Shown piece after piece: positions 3,122 through 9,224 of a stretch of DNA of 10,000 bases (position 1 is its first letter; each line of letters begins with the position of its first letter). The stretch is from Methanospirillum hungatei (lineage in GTDB: Archaea > Halobacteriota > Methanomicrobia > Methanomicrobiales > Methanospirillaceae), in contig NZ_JAIWNS010000021.1 in assembly GCF_020216685.1 (NCBI RefSeq), positions 1-10,000 of the forward strand, written 5' to 3'. A model generated the notes under the pieces. That model ran no database searches and had not been told where the DNA came from. It saw nothing but the letters and a program-made list of their open reading frames with translations. Both the position numbers and the translations under genes were made by a program.

Positions 3122-4234
3122 ATGAAACAATACATTTTGTTTATCATCTGTGCAATCCTTGGAGCTCTATTCCTTGGAATGCCGGTATGTGCAGAAGAGA
3201 GTAAAACTCGTATCATTACTGATATGACCGGAAATGAAATCGAAATTCCGGAAGCTATTGAACGTGTTGCATTTTTTGGAGGCCCAATCGGTCAGGTCCC
3301 CTATATTCTTGGTGTTCAGGATACCATTGTTGCGACTTCAATCGGGAGTAAGAATTCGCAGCTTCTCAACATCATGGACCCGAACCTGAAAAATATTGCT
3401 GCACCACGACAGACAAATGGAATTATCAATATTGAGGAATTGATCAAATCAGAACCACAGTTTGTTCTTGCAGGGAATGTAGACGGGGAGATTGTTGAAA
3501 AACAGACTTCAATTCCGGTTGTTTACTTCTTTGAGAACTCCGACGGTAATGTAGAGCAGACAAAAGCCGAAGTCACCTTTATCGGCTCTATCTATGGAAA
3601 AGAAGATCGGGCACAGAAATATGCAGACTATCTTGACTCTACGTTATCACTAGTGAAATCACGTATCGGAGACATTCCACTTTCTGAGCAGAAAGTTCTC
3701 TTTAACGGATATGATGCAAATCACCTCATCACCTATGGTGGAGACAGCTACATGCAGGAGCGTATTGAGAACGCCGGTCTTCAAAACGCTGCACTCGAAG
3801 TAAATACCTCTGGTGTCAGGCCTGGAATTCATGCAGGTCTTGATGAGATCTCCATGGAACAGGTCCTGAAGTGGAACCCGGATATTCTGGTCATTGATAC
3901 CGGATCACCTGAAGATGTGTACAATGATCCGAAGTGGGCTAGTGTTAAGGCAGTTCAGAACCGCCAGGTATTCCGGCTTCCAAATGGTGTGTTTGTATGG
4001 AACCGGCCAACCGCAGAGTCTGCAGTCCTTCACCCGCTCTGGATGGCTAAAATTGCATATCCTGAACGATTTAATGACATCTCCATGCAGGATGAGGTCA
4101 AAAAATTCTACCAGGAGATCTTCTCCTATGAGTTAACCGACGAACAGGTCGATAAGGTCCTCTCTGGTGAATTTGCATCTGCCATAAGTGCAGGAAAGGG
4201 ACAGACAAACCAGACAAACATGGGAAATAAGTAA
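3122..4234 (+). CDS. Metal-chelate ABC transporter substrate-binding protein (FepB/BtuF family)
   Basis: This is the extracytoplasmic receptor of a type II importer for iron-siderophore, cobamide or a related metal complex. The 370-residue product has a signal peptide (about 1-25, cut likely after VCA). The two-lobe helical-backbone receptor fold follows from about 30: DMTGNEIEIP (34-43), a first-lobe segment with IEELIKSEPQFVLAG (104-118), YGGDSY (205-210), the second-lobe segment ISMEQVLKWNPDILVID (243-259), and a C-terminal region with LPNGVFVWNRP (286-296) and LHPLWMAKIAYPERF (303-317). It ends in a polar, Asn/Gln-rich tail. No classic lipobox is visible although a Cys is at 23 (MPVC), and no C-terminal anchor is present, so how it stays at the cell surface is unclear. 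It is the first gene of the operon, with a good ribosome site 7 nt before the ATG. The cargo cannot be deduced; annotation as iron-complex binding rests on the family only. Confidence 0.92.
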   Translation: MKQYILFIICAILGALFLGMPVCAEESKTRIITDMTGNEIEIPEAIERVAFFGGPIGQVPYILGVQDTIVATSIGSKNSQLLNIMDPNLKNIAAPRQTNGIINIEELIKSEPQFVLAGNVDGEIVEKQTSIPVVYFFENSDGNVEQTKAEVTFIGSIYGKEDRAQKYADYLDSTLSLVKSRIGDIPLSEQKVLFNGYDANHLITYGGDSYMQERIENAGLQNAALEVNTSGVRPGIHAGLDEISMEQVLKWNPDILVIDTGSPEDVYNDPKWASVKAVQNRQVFRLPNGVFVWNRPTAESAVLHPLWMAKIAYPERFNDISMQDEVKKFYQEIFSYELTDEQVDKVLSGEFASAISAGKGQTNQTNMGNK

Positions 4235-4311: not shown

Positions 4312-5352
4312 ATGATAAGAAATCCTGTAAAAAAAGAGTTTAGGGGAAGACGAAATTACACCCTGCTAAAGACAGGTCTGGTTCTTTTTCTTTGTAGCAC
4401 GACTCTGATCTCTCTTATGGTCGGACGATTCGACGTACCCCCTTATGACGTAATCAATGCTATTTTTTCCGGTTTTATTCCATCTCCTGACCTCTCGCCT
4501 ACAGTCAGAAGTGTAATCGTGGATGTCCGGCTTCCCCGGGTTATCGCAGTAATTCTCGTAGGTGCTGCTTTATCTGTTGCTGGTGCTGCATTCCAGGGAC
4601 TTTTCCGAAACCCGCTCGTATCTCCGGATATTCTGGGAGTCTCTGCCGGTGCAGGCTTTGGAGCAGCACTTGCCCTTCTCCTGACTGAAAACATATTTAT
4701 TACCCAGACATTTGCTTTCCTCTTTGGGATCATCGCGGTAGGACTTGCATATATGATAAGCCGGGTTTACCGGGTCAGCACAACCCTCACTTTGGTCCTT
4801 GCCGGTATTGTGGTCGCAGCTCTTTTTCAGGCCCTGACTTCACTGGTAAAATATGTTGCAGATCCTCTCAATAAATTGCCGGCCATTGTTTTCTGGCTGA
4901 TGGGTTCATTTAACCACATATCAAACTCCGATCTGATGGTGGCCGGGCCATTGCTGCTTGGAGGAATGTTTATTCTTTACCTGGTCAGGTGGCGGATTAA
5001 TGTTCTTTCCATGGGTGAAGAGGATGCACGGGCACTTGGTGTTGATATCAGGCAACAAAAGGCGATTATCATCATTTCAGCAACGCTAATTTCAGCTGCT
5101 GCTGTTTCTATATGTGGAATAGTCGGATGGATAGGACTTGTTATCCCTCATGTAGGCAGGATCCTGGTGGGTCCGGATCATAAACTGCTCATTCCTATCG
5201 CTGCCTTAGTAGGAGCAACATATCTTCTGATCGTGGATACCGTCGCACGGACGGTAACGGTTACTGAAATCCCTATCGGGATTATTACTGCACTCGTGGG
5301 AGCACCGGTATTTGCATACCTTCTCAGGAAGACACAGACGGGGTGGAAGTAG
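4312..5352 (+). CDS. Metal-chelate ABC transporter permease (FecCD/BtuC family)
   Basis: This membrane subunit forms the transport channel as a homodimer. The length of 346 residues is normal for the family. After a basic N-terminal tail (about 1-18), hydrophobic segments run through the protein as expected for about ten helices. Family motifs are ALSVAGAAFQGLFRNPLVSP followed by DILGVSAGAG, the WLMGSF loop, and the cytoplasmic coupling region GIVGWIGLVIPHVGR with VGPDHKLLIP, which contacts the ATPase. The start ATG at 4312 has only a weak purine stretch upstream (agag), and the 77-nt gap after the receptor gene holds a terminator-like hairpin and a second stem-loop. The ATPase gene starts inside or directly at the end of this gene, so the two are likely translated together. 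Confidence 0.93.
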   Translation: MIRNPVKKEFRGRRNYTLLKTGLVLFLCSTTLISLMVGRFDVPPYDVINAIFSGFIPSPDLSPTVRSVIVDVRLPRVIAVILVGAALSVAGAAFQGLFRNPLVSPDILGVSAGAGFGAALALLLTENIFITQTFAFLFGIIAVGLAYMISRVYRVSTTLTLVLAGIVVAALFQALTSLVKYVADPLNKLPAIVFWLMGSFNHISNSDLMVAGPLLLGGMFILYLVRWRINVLSMGEEDARALGVDIRQQKAIIIISATLISAAAVSICGIVGWIGLVIPHVGRILVGPDHKLLIPIAALVGATYLLIVDTVARTVTVTEIPIGIITALVGAPVFAYLLRKTQTGWK

Positions 5353-6182
5353 TGACTAATCCATTAATTATCTCTGATCTTTCTTTTCGTTATCATGCAA
5401 AAGACGAAACCACCATTTTTTCCGGTATCAACCTGTCCCTTGCAAAAGGAGAAATATTCTGTCTGATCGGTCCGAATGGGACAGGCAAATCAACCCTGAT
5501 AAAATGTATTGCCGGTCTTCTGACAGCCGAATCTGGCTCCGTCCACATTGATGGTGAAGAATTGAAGACACTCAGCCCGGCACGATCAGCCAGGATCGTT
5601 GGGTATGTCCCCCAATCACATACTCCCTCCTTCCCGTTTCCGGTTCGGGACGTGGTTGTCATGGGGAGATCACCCCATCTGGGTCCGCTTTCTTCACCGT
5701 CAGATTCTGATATGATGATTGCAGAGGAGTCCATGAAAACCGTCGGAGTATCACATCTGGCTGACCGTCCCTGCACTGATATCAGTGGCGGAGAGTATCA
5801 ACTTGTCCTCATTGCACGGGCTCTGACTCAGCAGCCACGGATTCTTCTTCTTGATGAACCCACATCTCACCTGGATCTGGGAAATCAGATGAAGATTCTT
5901 CGTACTATTAGAAAATTGAGCGAACAAGGCCTTTCTATTCTGATGGCCACCCACTTTCCTGATCACGCATTCCTCATATCGGGACAGGTAGGGATGATGA
6001 TGAATAAAGGGCTATCCAGAACCGGATCAGCAGAATCAATCATAAACGAAGGGATTATGCGGGAGGCTTATGATGCAGAAGTATGCATCATGACCATTCC
6101 AGGTGACAATGGCAGAAAGATCTGCATCCCTATGCTATCAGCCGGGGATAATCAGGAATATGCCCATACAATCATGAATTGA
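5343..6182 (+). CDS. Metal-chelate ABC transporter ATP-binding protein (FepC/BtuD family)
   Basis: This cytoplasmic ATPase powers the importer. It has 279 residues if translation starts at GTG 5343, or 276 from GTG 5352. The latter overlaps the permease stop codon by one base (taGTG) and has ggtgg about 5 nt upstream, which makes it at least as likely. All motifs are intact: Walker A GPNGTGKST (43-51), Q-loop Q91, signature ISGGE (147-151, an acceptable variant of LSGGQ), Walker B ILLLDE (167-172), D-loop SHLDLGNQ, and switch histidine H204. The linker after the Q-loop (FPFPVRDVVVMGRSPHLG) is typical of FepC/BtuD-type subunits. The C-terminal 60 residues are a short tail without a recognised regulatory domain. 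The next gene starts 11 nt after its stop codon. Confidence 0.94.
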   Translation: MEVVTNPLIISDLSFRYHAKDETTIFSGINLSLAKGEIFCLIGPNGTGKSTLIKCIAGLLTAESGSVHIDGEELKTLSPARSARIVGYVPQSHTPSFPFPVRDVVVMGRSPHLGPLSSPSDSDMMIAEESMKTVGVSHLADRPCTDISGGEYQLVLIARALTQQPRILLLDEPTSHLDLGNQMKILRTIRKLSEQGLSILMATHFPDHAFLISGQVGMMMNKGLSRTGSAESIINEGIMREAYDAEVCIMTIPGDNGRKICIPMLSAGDNQEYAHTIMN

Positions 6183-6193: not shown

Positions 6194-6868
6194 ATGAATA
6201 CACACGATAATGCACAAAACAGTGAAAATGAAACCACACGATATGATCGGATGGATATAGAGCAGGCTCGGGCATTTGATGAAACTGCATCGAAGATATT
6301 TGCTCCGATTTACCCGGTTATTGCACGGCAGATTCTGGATAGGACCAAAGTATCAAGGGGAGTAGCTCTTGACGCAGGGTGTGGACCTGCTCACCTGTCC
6401 CTGGCCCTTGCACAGGAATCTGAGCTAAAACTATTTGCTTTTGACGCATCTCCCATGATGTTGGCAATTGCCTATGAACATATAACCGATGCAGGACTTG
6501 TCAAAAGAGTGGTCCCAGTTCTTGGAGATGTTCATGACATCCCTTTTGAAGATAATTCAATCGATCTGATTGTGAGCAGGGGATCCTGGTTCTTCTGGGA
6601 TAATCTGGATCTGGCATTTAAAGAGATGTACAGAGTTCTGTCACCAGGTGGAATGACATTTATCGGGGGAGGATTTGGGAATGCACAGCTGAAAAAAGAG
6701 ATTCATGCAACCATGGCTGAGATGGATCCGGAATTTTCAAAAGGGGTTTCTAACCGGATGATGACGAATAATCCAGACCGGATTAAAAAAGAACTGGAAA
6801 AGGCAGAAATCCAGACCTATGATCTGATACAGGACGACTCAGGGTTCTGGCTTATCATCAGAAAATAA
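6194..6868 (+). CDS. Class I SAM-dependent methyltransferase of the transporter operon
   Basis: The 224-residue cytoplasmic protein has a Rossmann-type methyltransferase domain (about 45-175). Motif I is LDAGCGPAHLSLAL, which binds SAM; the acidic post-I residue is in FAFDASPMM; LGDVHDIPFEDNSIDLIVSRG covers the adenine-contact and motif IV region; MYRVLSPGGMTFIGGG is the usual motif V/VI strand-turn-strand. The N-terminal 20 residues are polar and likely flexible, and the RAFDETASKIFAPIYPVIARQIL segment (26-48) forms the usual substrate-side helix. Such domains methylate small molecules, tetrapyrroles, quinones or arsenite. It lacks the cysteine set of ArsM arsenite methyltransferases, and the substrate is not evident. 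Its place between the transporter ATPase and a radical SAM gene, with 10-11 nt gaps and a strong ribosome site, suggests that it acts on the imported compound or a derivative. Confidence 0.87.
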   Translation: MNTHDNAQNSENETTRYDRMDIEQARAFDETASKIFAPIYPVIARQILDRTKVSRGVALDAGCGPAHLSLALAQESELKLFAFDASPMMLAIAYEHITDAGLVKRVVPVLGDVHDIPFEDNSIDLIVSRGSWFFWDNLDLAFKEMYRVLSPGGMTFIGGGFGNAQLKKEIHATMAEMDPEFSKGVSNRMMTNNPDRIKKELEKAEIQTYDLIQDDSGFWLIIRK

Positions 6869-6878
6869 AGGAAAACCA

Positions 6879-8615
6879 ATGACAATCTGTTCAGTATGTG
6901 AGATGCGTTGTAATATTCAGGAGAACCAGTCCGGATCATGCGGAATGTATACCTGCCATGATGGGCAGATTCATGAACGGCATCCAAATTCATATCTTGT
7001 TGAATATCCGGTCAGTATTGAGACTATCCCGTTCCTACATTTTTATCCGAAACAAAAATTTTTACAGGTCAGTACCGTTGGTTGTAATTTCAGATGTGTG
7101 GGATGTGTATCAGATCTCCTGACCAGAACAGCCGCAGAATTTACCCCTTCACTGATTCATACTACACCTAAAGACATGGTTTCCCGTGCTATCAGCGAGA
7201 AATGCAGGGGAATCGTATTTGCTCTCAATGATCCAACGGTATCATTTCCATCCTTTCTTGCTCTGGCGCACCAGGCGAAACAGGCAGGACTCCTGATCGG
7301 CTGCTCCACAAACGGGTATTTCACTGATGAGTCATTATCCCTGATGATACCGGTTGTTGATGCGGTCGCTGTCGGGATTAAGGGAAGCGACGATGCCGCC
7401 TATCACGCATGTGGCGTGAGATCATCAGAACCGGTGTTCAGAAATATCAAGAAACTTGTGGATTCAGGCATCCATGTCGAAGTGACCGTGGTATATGAAA
7501 AAGGATCAGAAAAAGAATTGATAAAAACAGGCCGGCGTATTGTTGAAATCAGCCCGGAGATCCCCATTCTGGTTATGAGATTTATCCCCTTTGGTCCGGC
7601 TGATCTGGCTCTTGAACCGGGCATCCGTGCATCTGAAAAGATGTGTGATAAACTGCGGGAATTTGCCAGATATGTATATCTCTTTAATTCACCGGGTTCA
7701 GCATATCTTCAAACCAGATGTCCAAAGTGCGGTCAAATCATTGTAAGACGGGAGTTTTATGGTCCAATGGGGGCCAGGGTGATCGACAAATCCACACAAT
7801 GGACCTGTTCCTGTGGATTTCACATTCCATATATTGGTACGATTGCACAAAATGCATACCAGGAAGAGGGTATGATGGGAGGGTATCGCCCGACTCGTGC
7901 TCTTGAAGTCATCAAGGCTATCACCACCTGTCTTGATATTCAGGATGAGAAAACAAGTGCAAAGGTGTGGATGGATTTTATCTCTCAAAATTATATCGAC
8001 ACACTTCATAAAAAAATCCAGAAGATTGAGACGTTCTATGAGGTCATTGCACATCTTGCGGAGATCACCGGAACGGTTCAAAAGGGTGATCTACTCATCG
8101 CATATATTCGGGATCGGATTGCATTCATCTCATCCCTTGTAGAGAATAAACCCAGACCACGGGTTTTGTATGTTATGGGAACTCCATTATTTATTTTAAA
8201 TGAAGACAGGTTTGAAAACGCGATGGTCAGAGCAGCTGGGGGTGAACCGGTTAACGTAAATCTCCCCCGGAAAGGAAAACCCGGGATTATGGTGGATCCG
8301 GCATTTATCAACCAGTTGAATCCGGATGTTATCATGGTATCAGGATTTCTGTCAACTCCTCTTGAAGATATCTATGCAATCTGTGCAGAACAGGGCATCG
8401 ATGTGAATGCGGTTCGACACCACCGGATCCATCTCATGCCACCATCATGGGATTTTGGGAGCCCACGATTTGTACTTGGTCTCTTCTACCAGGTCAGCGT
8501 GCTCCACCCGGACATTGCTGTCGATATTGAGAAAGAAGCAGAGCAGTTTTACCAGCAATTCTATCACATGCCATACGCCGAGGCGAAACCAAACAGGTCC
8601 TTTTTCCGGCCCTGA
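6879..8615 (+). CDS. Radical SAM enzyme fused to a C-terminal FepB/BtuF-like metal-receptor domain
   Basis: This 578-residue protein has no signal peptide and so acts in the cytoplasm. Parts in order: an N-terminal Cys cluster (C4, C7, C11, C21) like that of PflA-related radical SAM proteins; a radical SAM core (about 60-270) with C69-x3-C73-x2-C76, which should hold the [4Fe-4S] cluster that cleaves SAM; a zinc-ribbon-like segment (C281, C284, C310, C312), comparable to the end of AmmeMemoRadiSam-type enzymes; a helical linker (about 335-420); and a domain at about 425-565 that resembles the receptor fold of FepB/BtuF: VLYVMGTPLF, an AAGG turn (452-455), INQLNPDVIMVSGF (477-490), MPPSWDFGSPR (520-530) and LHPDI. 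Normally that fold works outside the membrane as the transporter's receptor. The ATG lies 10 nt after the methyltransferase stop codon, with aaagga 6 nt upstream. Substrate and reaction are unknown; handling of the imported metal complex is an inference. Confidence 0.88.
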   Translation: MTICSVCEMRCNIQENQSGSCGMYTCHDGQIHERHPNSYLVEYPVSIETIPFLHFYPKQKFLQVSTVGCNFRCVGCVSDLLTRTAAEFTPSLIHTTPKDMVSRAISEKCRGIVFALNDPTVSFPSFLALAHQAKQAGLLIGCSTNGYFTDESLSLMIPVVDAVAVGIKGSDDAAYHACGVRSSEPVFRNIKKLVDSGIHVEVTVVYEKGSEKELIKTGRRIVEISPEIPILVMRFIPFGPADLALEPGIRASEKMCDKLREFARYVYLFNSPGSAYLQTRCPKCGQIIVRREFYGPMGARVIDKSTQWTCSCGFHIPYIGTIAQNAYQEEGMMGGYRPTRALEVIKAITTCLDIQDEKTSAKVWMDFISQNYIDTLHKKIQKIETFYEVIAHLAEITGTVQKGDLLIAYIRDRIAFISSLVENKPRPRVLYVMGTPLFILNEDRFENAMVRAAGGEPVNVNLPRKGKPGIMVDPAFINQLNPDVIMVSGFLSTPLEDIYAICAEQGIDVNAVRHHRIHLMPPSWDFGSPRFVLGLFYQVSVLHPDIAVDIEKEAEQFYQQFYHMPYAEAKPNRSFFRP

Positions 8616-8681: not shown

Positions 8682-9224
8682 ATGAGCCGTATTTTGGTTT
8701 TGTTCATTGCGGGTCTGCTTATTTTCAGTCTGACATCAGCAGGAAATGCAGACATGACCCCCCTTCCAAAGGTCCAGCTGCCGCTTGCACCGCCAGCACA
8801 GGAACCACCGTTTGATGATGATGAATTCTTTGATAAGGCTAACACCACCATATACAAGATCTGCACCGGGGAAACACTCCCGGTCGGAAAGATGAATACT
8901 GCTGTTCATGACTCGCTCGCCGGGACTTATTACACCCTTATCAGGATGAATGTCAGTCAGGAACAGTATCCACGGGCAGAAGAAGTTGTATCATTCCTGT
9001 CCTACACCCTGACACTATCAGAAAATTACCAGGACTATGAATCAGAGCAGAATAAGTTCTCCCCGGTCGAAATGGGCATTACACCTTATGAAGATCTGAA
9101 ACCATGGTACAATGCAGCAGCCAGAATGTGGAAAAAGATTTCAAAAGATTATCCAGGTGCAGAGATGTACGGGATGCCTGCTGCAATCGGACCAAAATCA
9201 TGGATAATCGGGCAGGTTCCATAG
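8682..9224 (+). CDS. Secreted protein of unknown function
   Basis: I do not recognise this 180-residue protein. It has a clear signal peptide (hydrophobic 4-20, likely cut after AGNA at about 23), then a proline-rich segment with PPAQEPP (about 27-43) and the acidic patch FDDDEFFD (44-51). The rest (about 65-160) looks mainly helical, with spaced aromatic residues and an EVVSFLSYTLTLSENY stretch reminiscent of helical hairpin repeats. It has one cysteine (61) and two N-glycosylation sequons, NTT (54-56) and NVS (90-92), both compatible with an extracellular archaeal protein. The start codon has no Shine-Dalgarno. It lies 66 nt after the radical SAM gene behind a weak hairpin and a TATA-like element, so it may be a separate unit or the last gene of the operon. 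A role with the transporter is possible but not shown. Confidence 0.72.
   Translation: MSRILVLFIAGLLIFSLTSAGNADMTPLPKVQLPLAPPAQEPPFDDDEFFDKANTTIYKICTGETLPVGKMNTAVHDSLAGTYYTLIRMNVSQEQYPRAEEVVSFLSYTLTLSENYQDYESEQNKFSPVEMGITPYEDLKPWYNAAARMWKKISKDYPGAEMYGMPAAIGPKSWIIGQVP

Follow-up and report, generated by a model that had tools for sequence, protein, structure and literature searches.

In anaerobic heme degradation, a radical S-adenosylmethionine (SAM) enzyme (ChuW/HutW) located beside an importer of the class III type opens the imported metal chelate. This provides a mechanistic precedent for the protein considered here, in the following called T, although ChuW/HutW belongs to another radical SAM class and carries no receptor half. 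T comprises 578 amino acids (aa) and is encoded at positions 6879..8615 on the + strand of a 10-kb stretch of DNA from Methanospirillum hungatei (NZ_JAIWNS010000021.1, hereafter the window), which is a complete contig of a 3.0 Mb genome. It combines a radical SAM enzyme with one half of a class III receptor in a single chain, i.e. the receptor of an ATP-binding cassette (ABC) importer is reused, in part, inside a radical enzyme. There is a good chance that T defines a new pathway.

Four other described systems share features with T. The nearest NCBIfam model is that of the AmmeMemoRadiSam radical SAM enzymes (TIGR04337, AmrS), along most of which residues 3-316 of T align, the N-terminal four-Cys region included (92.8 bits against a cut-off of 220, E 1.8e-26). 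For a family alignment we used the window protein together with 82 of 120 listed homologues, leaving out 38 that exceeded 85% identity or were not between 555-620 aa long. All 83 sequences match TIGR04337 at E <= 1e-5 (best E 6e-36), such that the radical half of T is a relative of that family, while T has a receptor half and importer partners. A separate relative without receptor half, 30% identical, is found in the window's genome (G000:C180). The tungsten radical SAM maturase TIGR04317 shares the radical SAM core and, by its name, a tungsten context, but its match is limited to residues 66-198 and reaches 37.3 bits against a cut-off of 380. Class III (cluster A-II) receptors, among them 4hn9, 4ovk, 4pag, MolA (3psa) and CeuE HP1561, differ from T, which is fused to a radical enzyme, has no evident signal peptide and has lost most of the N-lobe, with 215 residues aligned to a chain of 316. 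Finally, archaeal MoeA fused to a PBP_like domain (PF12727) also places a receptor-type domain in a cytoplasmic enzyme of the molybdenum (Mo) and tungsten (W) cofactor; there, however, the receptor family is different and radical chemistry is absent. One such fusion lies near a T gene (L070:3909-5762; L and G numbers denote our regions and genomes).

A sequence-only reading of the window had described T as a cytoplasmic fusion of a Cys cluster, a radical SAM core, a zinc-ribbon-like segment and a receptor-like domain. This layout proved to be real. Pfam places Radical_SAM at residues 65-204 (E 5.8e-12) and Peripla_BP_2 at residues 376-522 (E 2.4e-6, just above the cut-off), one confident structure model was obtained, and all 120 listed relatives align across at least 95% of the query, which rejects an artefact or a chance fusion. 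The N-terminal four-Cys motif (residues 4, 7, 11 and 21; 6888..6941) lies inside the stretch matching the AmmeMemoRadiSam model and is conserved in 74, 74, 74 and 75 of the 83 sequences, the remainder being gaps. It is followed by the radical SAM domain (residues about 60-270; 7056..7688), a partial TIM barrel of the PFL-AE-like fold with the CxxxCxxC motif at C69, C73 and C76. These three residues, as well as C281, C284, C310 and C312 of the subsequent ribbon (7719..7814), are each kept in 83/83 sequences. The core is thus intact as claimed, and the zinc-ribbon-like segment corresponds to this four-Cys ribbon, which may bind Zn or carry an auxiliary Fe-S cluster.

The receptor part begins with helices 337-421 (7887..8141), which in the secondary structure of the model appear as a remnant of the receptor N-lobe and the backbone helix of class III receptors; receptor alignments mostly begin at residue 338-341. 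The C-lobe follows at residues about 426-572 (8154..8594). Its fold with the helical backbone is that of class III receptors (4hn9, E 1.9e-15), not an unrelated one. Two complete lobes are not present: the Peripla_BP_2 match spans positions 92-233 of the 235-position profile, i.e. the second half only, and the N-lobe is largely lost. The predicted half-clamshell geometry is suggested by the pTM and the alignment ranges, and with only half a receptor the C-lobe alone probably does not clamp a ligand. The earlier assignment as a receptor-like domain holds; BtuF is farther off than the 4hn9/4ovk/4pag group, CeuE HP1561 (Ni) and MolA (molybdate). Inspection of the N-terminus by eye revealed no export signal, bearing out the cytoplasmic location. 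When the C-lobes of 41 T proteins were placed in a tree with 43 neighbouring receptors, one of which served as root, they clustered together to the exclusion of every receptor (support 0.924). This is compatible with a single fusion event and likewise speaks against a chance fusion.

The earlier remark that no described enzyme with this layout was known to its author agrees with our searches: no NCBIfam model scores above its cut-off for T, and within the open-licence literature, to which the search was confined, no title or abstract among the papers listed describes a fusion of a radical SAM enzyme and a receptor. The available parts of PMC9431491 (a Methanococcus voltae proteome), PMC9765008, PMC10390477, PMC2954201, PMC2954224 and PMC3578447 do not name it. 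The family is conserved and, apparently, unstudied. It occurs in many methanogens and some sulfate reducers, with Desulfobacterota and a spirochaete among its carriers. Two protein searches returned 420 and 535 homologues (120 listed in each). Sources named among the matches listed include Methanospirillum, Methanosphaerula, Methanosarcina, Methanococcoides, Methanococcus (including Methanococcus maripaludis), Methanotorris, Methanoculleus, Methanothrix and Methanolliviera, as well as Desulfobacula toluolica, Desulfatiglandales, Desulfobacteraceae and a spirochaete; a protein of Methanospirillum sp. is 65% identical to that of the window. These organisms are anaerobes, many of them from sulfidic habitats. 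In the window's phylum T is found at E <= 1e-70 in 49 of 392 genomes and 16 of 136 genera. A plasmid search gave nine records, none covering 80% of T, with matches only to separate AmrS-like or receptor-like proteins. A contig search for related loci gave six, none matching both halves, in a scan outside which near relatives may fall.

In the window, T is preceded on the + strand by a class III substrate-binding protein of the secreted type (3122..4234; PF01497, E 1.3e-23; best matches 4ovk, MolA 3psa and 4pag), a FecCD permease (4312..5352; PF01032, E 5.9e-90), an ABC ATPase (5343..6182; PF00005, E 6.1e-32) and a class I SAM methyltransferase (6194..6868; PF08241, E 1.9e-21), which ends 10 nucleotides (nt) before T. 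Downstream of T a 180-aa protein is encoded (8682..9224), which has a signal-like N-terminus by inspection and lacks a Pfam or NCBIfam match. Adjacent genes are separated by 77, 11, 10 and 66 nt and in one case overlap, which points to a single operon reaching from the receptor gene to that of the 180-aa protein, which is possibly the last operon gene.

The partners recur elsewhere. We surveyed neighbours by tblastn in the window and 40 regions, which were chosen around T rather than at random; 39 of these 41 contained T genes that satisfied the filter, 45 in total including one short form without receptor half (L098). For 29/45 T genes, the gene immediately upstream in the same orientation is a relative of the window methyltransferase, and receptor, permease and ATPase are all found within 6 kb for 24/45, where the ATPase queries may also match ModC-like ATPases. 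The order receptor-methyltransferase-T-permease-ATPase occurs in nine regions (L083-L085, L087, L089-L092 and L100), eight of one family, which we take to be that of Methanococcoides burtonii, and one of another. Other copies are flanked by ModA/ModB-like, FmdE, DUF364/DUF4213, MoeA, XdhC and TrmO-like genes. FwdA and FwdB matches are found near T in L070, together with two MoeA genes, and upstream of T in L073; in L080, FwdB and FwdD are more than 20 kb from the closest T. Overall, 20 of the 45 T genes have at least one match to a Mo, W or nitrogenase query within 10 kb.

Whether such neighbours exceed background was assessed for 34 T loci from the 25 genomes with T among 61 searched, with Poisson expectations calculated from genome size and gene number. 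T genes separated by less than 20 kb counted as one locus, which reduced 40 genes to 34 loci. The count excluded related proteins of about 320 aa that have no receptor half, as well as separate receptors and a 97-residue fragment of G027. It retained one copy truncated at a contig end (G005) and the interrupted ones in G045 and G052; contig ends lower the observed counts. ModA-like genes, counted at 140 bits or more, lie within 10 kb of 11 loci where 0.55 were expected (P 3.6e-12). For DUF364 the count was 12 against 0.43 (P 2.1e-15), leaving out a fragment of 44 positions (G009:C29), and for FmdE 8 against 0.98 (P 4e-6), observed and expected both taken among the matches listed and thus both lacking some matches. 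With FmdE counted in this way, 18/34 loci have at least one of the three. The controls remained at background, with FeoB at no locus (0.51 expected), CobN at one (0.38 expected) and CbiM at one (0.60 expected). The T family is hence associated with genes of Mo, W and vanadium (V) acquisition above background. Such an association had in part been recognised before in general terms, though not for T, since both DUF364 and FmdE had been observed next to rare-metal transporters: in the available parts of the respective papers, DUF364 is described in the context of tungstate, molybdate, vanadium and iron (PMC2954201) and FmdE adjoining metal-ion transporters (PMC2954224).

A further link comes from V/Fe nitrogenases, which are used under Mo shortage. 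AnfG/VnfG was found in seven of the 392 genomes, four of which also have T. Exactly four of the nine T-bearing genomes of genus g79, presumably Methanosarcina, carry a second T paralog, and these are the same four that have AnfG/VnfG. The paralog lies 4.0-5.2 kb from the nearest AnfG/VnfG gene. In L088 the block consists of P-II genes (two by clustering, one scanned), AnfD, AnfG, AnfK, AnfO, NifH on the other strand, T, a second AnfO-like gene, receptor, permease, ATPase and another receptor; in L086, T and NifH are divergent. The corrinoid emphasis of the sequence-only reading was not supported, since cobalt and cobamide genes (CbiM, CobN) are not enriched near T, in contrast to the Mo/W genes near the family and the V/Fe-nitrogenase genes adjoining the g79 paralog. 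Handling of corrinoid, cobalt or ferrous iron was rejected as the leading explanation based on the CbiM, CobN and FeoB controls.

The C-lobe retains a ligand loop of the neighbouring importer receptors. In a joint alignment of 41 T proteins and 43 such receptors, W524 (with D525 at 8448-8453) is Trp in 31/41 T and 42/43 receptors, and D525 is Asp in 31/41 and 29/43, respectively. The position after this pair is Arg in 27/43 receptors and Phe in 31/41 T, and T has an Arg at position 530 in 31/41. The ten T copies without W524 equal in number the ten T proteins of clade B, and the four clade B sequences listed lack the Trp.

Based on these data we propose, with a probability of about 0.38, that T is a cytoplasmic radical SAM enzyme acting on an organic chelate of Mo, W or V that the class III importer of its operon brings in. 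The importer would deliver the chelate into the cell. The C-lobe, with its W-D loop kept in most copies, may then bind this chelate and position it at the radical SAM site, which would take the place of the lost N-lobe. The 5'-deoxyadenosyl radical, together with the methyltransferase, could alter the ligand, and the metal would be released to MoeA/Fwd-type cofactors or to nitrogenase. T most likely works on the delivered chelate. This fits its conserved components: besides the radical generator and the methyltransferase, there is an importer of the chelate type and, within the cell, a C-lobe from the same receptor group. As for the metal, we are fairly confident that it belongs to the Mo/W/V class, because Mo/W genes co-locate above expectation and the paralog sits in V/Fe-nitrogenase loci. 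The direction of the reaction is less clear, since the sequence would fit breakage of the ligand after import as well as its synthesis before export.

Several observations weigh against this proposal. For 25/45 T genes there is no match to a Mo, W or nitrogenase query within 10 kb, including all nine regions with the order receptor-methyltransferase-T-permease-ATPase; likewise 16/34 loci lack ModA, FmdE (among the matches listed) and DUF364. No Mo/W gene is found on the 10-kb contig of the window or in the flanks of the 89% identical locus L061 (G001). The co-location was drawn from related genomes (12/25 of the window's genus), a relatedness that the P values ignore, and spans few genera (three for ModA, three for FmdE, four for DUF364); the comparison covered T loci, with same-class importers lacking T outside it. 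An additional AnfG/VnfG gene of genome G402 (C1:2481099) lies far from any T, three genomes of another family have AnfG/VnfG and no T at E <= 1e-70, and the nitrogenase-linked T genes in L086 and L088 have no methyltransferase within 10 kb. W524 is missing from 10/41 T sequences. T is about as close to MolA-like as to HP1561-like receptors, such that nickel chelates are possible, and iron chelates also. Moreover, we know of no metallophore from a methanogen.

The shared operon of radical SAM enzyme, methyltransferase and importer would also fit a biosynthetic role, in which T and the methyltransferase (with DUF364 and FmdE where present) build a metal-binding molecule that is secreted, binds Mo, W or V and returns via the importer, while the receptor half would serve to recognise this product or to probe its metal-loaded form. 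We regard this as rather unlikely, though worth keeping in mind: there is no obvious scaffold-building synthetase or ligase among the constant partners and no exporter in the window, and the presence of a receptor half points to the imported form as what is recognised. Less likely still, T could handle a complex of iron, nickel, heme or corrinoid and owe its proximity to Mo genes simply to the clustering of metal genes. Clustering of this kind does not readily account for FeoB, CobN and CbiM at background (0, 1 and 1 of 34 loci), nor for a second g79 paralog that tracks the V/Fe nitrogenase genes in the sampled genomes.

The N-terminal 316 residues, which resemble TIGR04337 (1.8e-26) and PFL activases, would also be expected if T modified a protein in the manner of AmmeMemoRadiSam enzymes or glycyl radical activases, the receptor half being a docking module only. 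We consider this improbable, as T scores far below the cut-offs of TIGR04337 (92.8 vs 220 bits) and of the activase models PFLA (23.3 vs 231.75 bits) and YjjW (40.1 vs 250.2 bits). The ligand-loop residues are furthermore kept in 31/41 copies of the receptor half, and no glycyl radical enzyme, Memo or AMMECR1 was seen among the neighbours scanned, a scan that was not exhaustive and in which Memo and AMMECR1 were not searched for. Assembly or insertion of a metal-sulfur cofactor, by a one-chain analogue of NifB plus a scaffold of receptor fold, has a very low probability in our view. The C-half is clearly receptor-derived, and the 49 genomes with T contrast with only seven with AnfG/VnfG, of which just four have T, Mo nitrogenase being outside this survey.

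The formylmethanofuran dehydrogenase of methanogens depends on Mo or W and their nitrogenase on Mo or V, and T is a conserved candidate for the supply of these metals in sulfidic medium. In the available part of PMC10390477, molybdate in cell-free sulfidic medium was converted to tetrathiomolybdate; the conversion was complete by 72 h with sulfide and by 3 h when Fe(II) was present as well, conditions under which a chelate route would help. In a broader, tentative picture, anaerobes of sulfidic habitats would run a Mo/W/V metallophore economy with T as its signature enzyme, the one-lobed receptor passing the loaded chelate to the radical site where the ligand is broken or built inside the cell. 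T would then act as a radical de-chelatase, of which some Methanosarcina would have a copy dedicated to V/Fe nitrogenases; to our knowledge no such enzyme has been described. The recurrent placement of T beside Mo and W genes, and in some Methanosarcina beside genes of Mo-free nitrogenase, suggests a role in handling scarce metals, and since T occurs in species with genetics such as Methanococcus maripaludis, the metal-supply question is directly testable.

Several regions showed unusual arrangements around T. In L079 and L080 (G010) and L096 (G004), all from the window's genus, islands of 20-40 kb contain many class III receptors, methyltransferases, DUF364 genes and up to three T genes; each is a dense metal-acquisition region. 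Broken T copies occur in L065 (G045) and L078 (G194), one with an in-frame stop near the domain junction and one with a mid-gene frame change, reflecting either fission or decay. A sister arrangement (L098:9365-11514 and L097:9260-11415) consists of a radical SAM protein without receptor half (335 aa in L098) followed by another protein, which in L098 has 389 aa and no match in Pfam. It adjoins class III importer genes and, in L097, also a methyltransferase; ModA-like and MOT1 molybdate transporter genes lie within about 9 kb of it in L097. Single proteins that appear to consist of two class III receptors in tandem are encoded at L081:248-2248 (666 aa) and L097:6890-9172 (760 aa). Beside T in L064 (12800-19110), many spurious open reading frames share one repeated peptide pattern, which we take to be probably a CRISPR array.

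In the window itself, scans with Rfam and for tRNAs gave no match, and promoter and terminator scans, for which the consensus was bacterial only, gave 10 and 4 hits where 13.6 and 5.6 were expected by chance. A 209-aa DUF5591 protein on the - strand (1364-1993) resembles part of the archaeosine synthase ArcS, well under the NCBIfam cut-off. Relatives of the 180-aa protein are found twice in L061, where they adjoin T, and also in L063.
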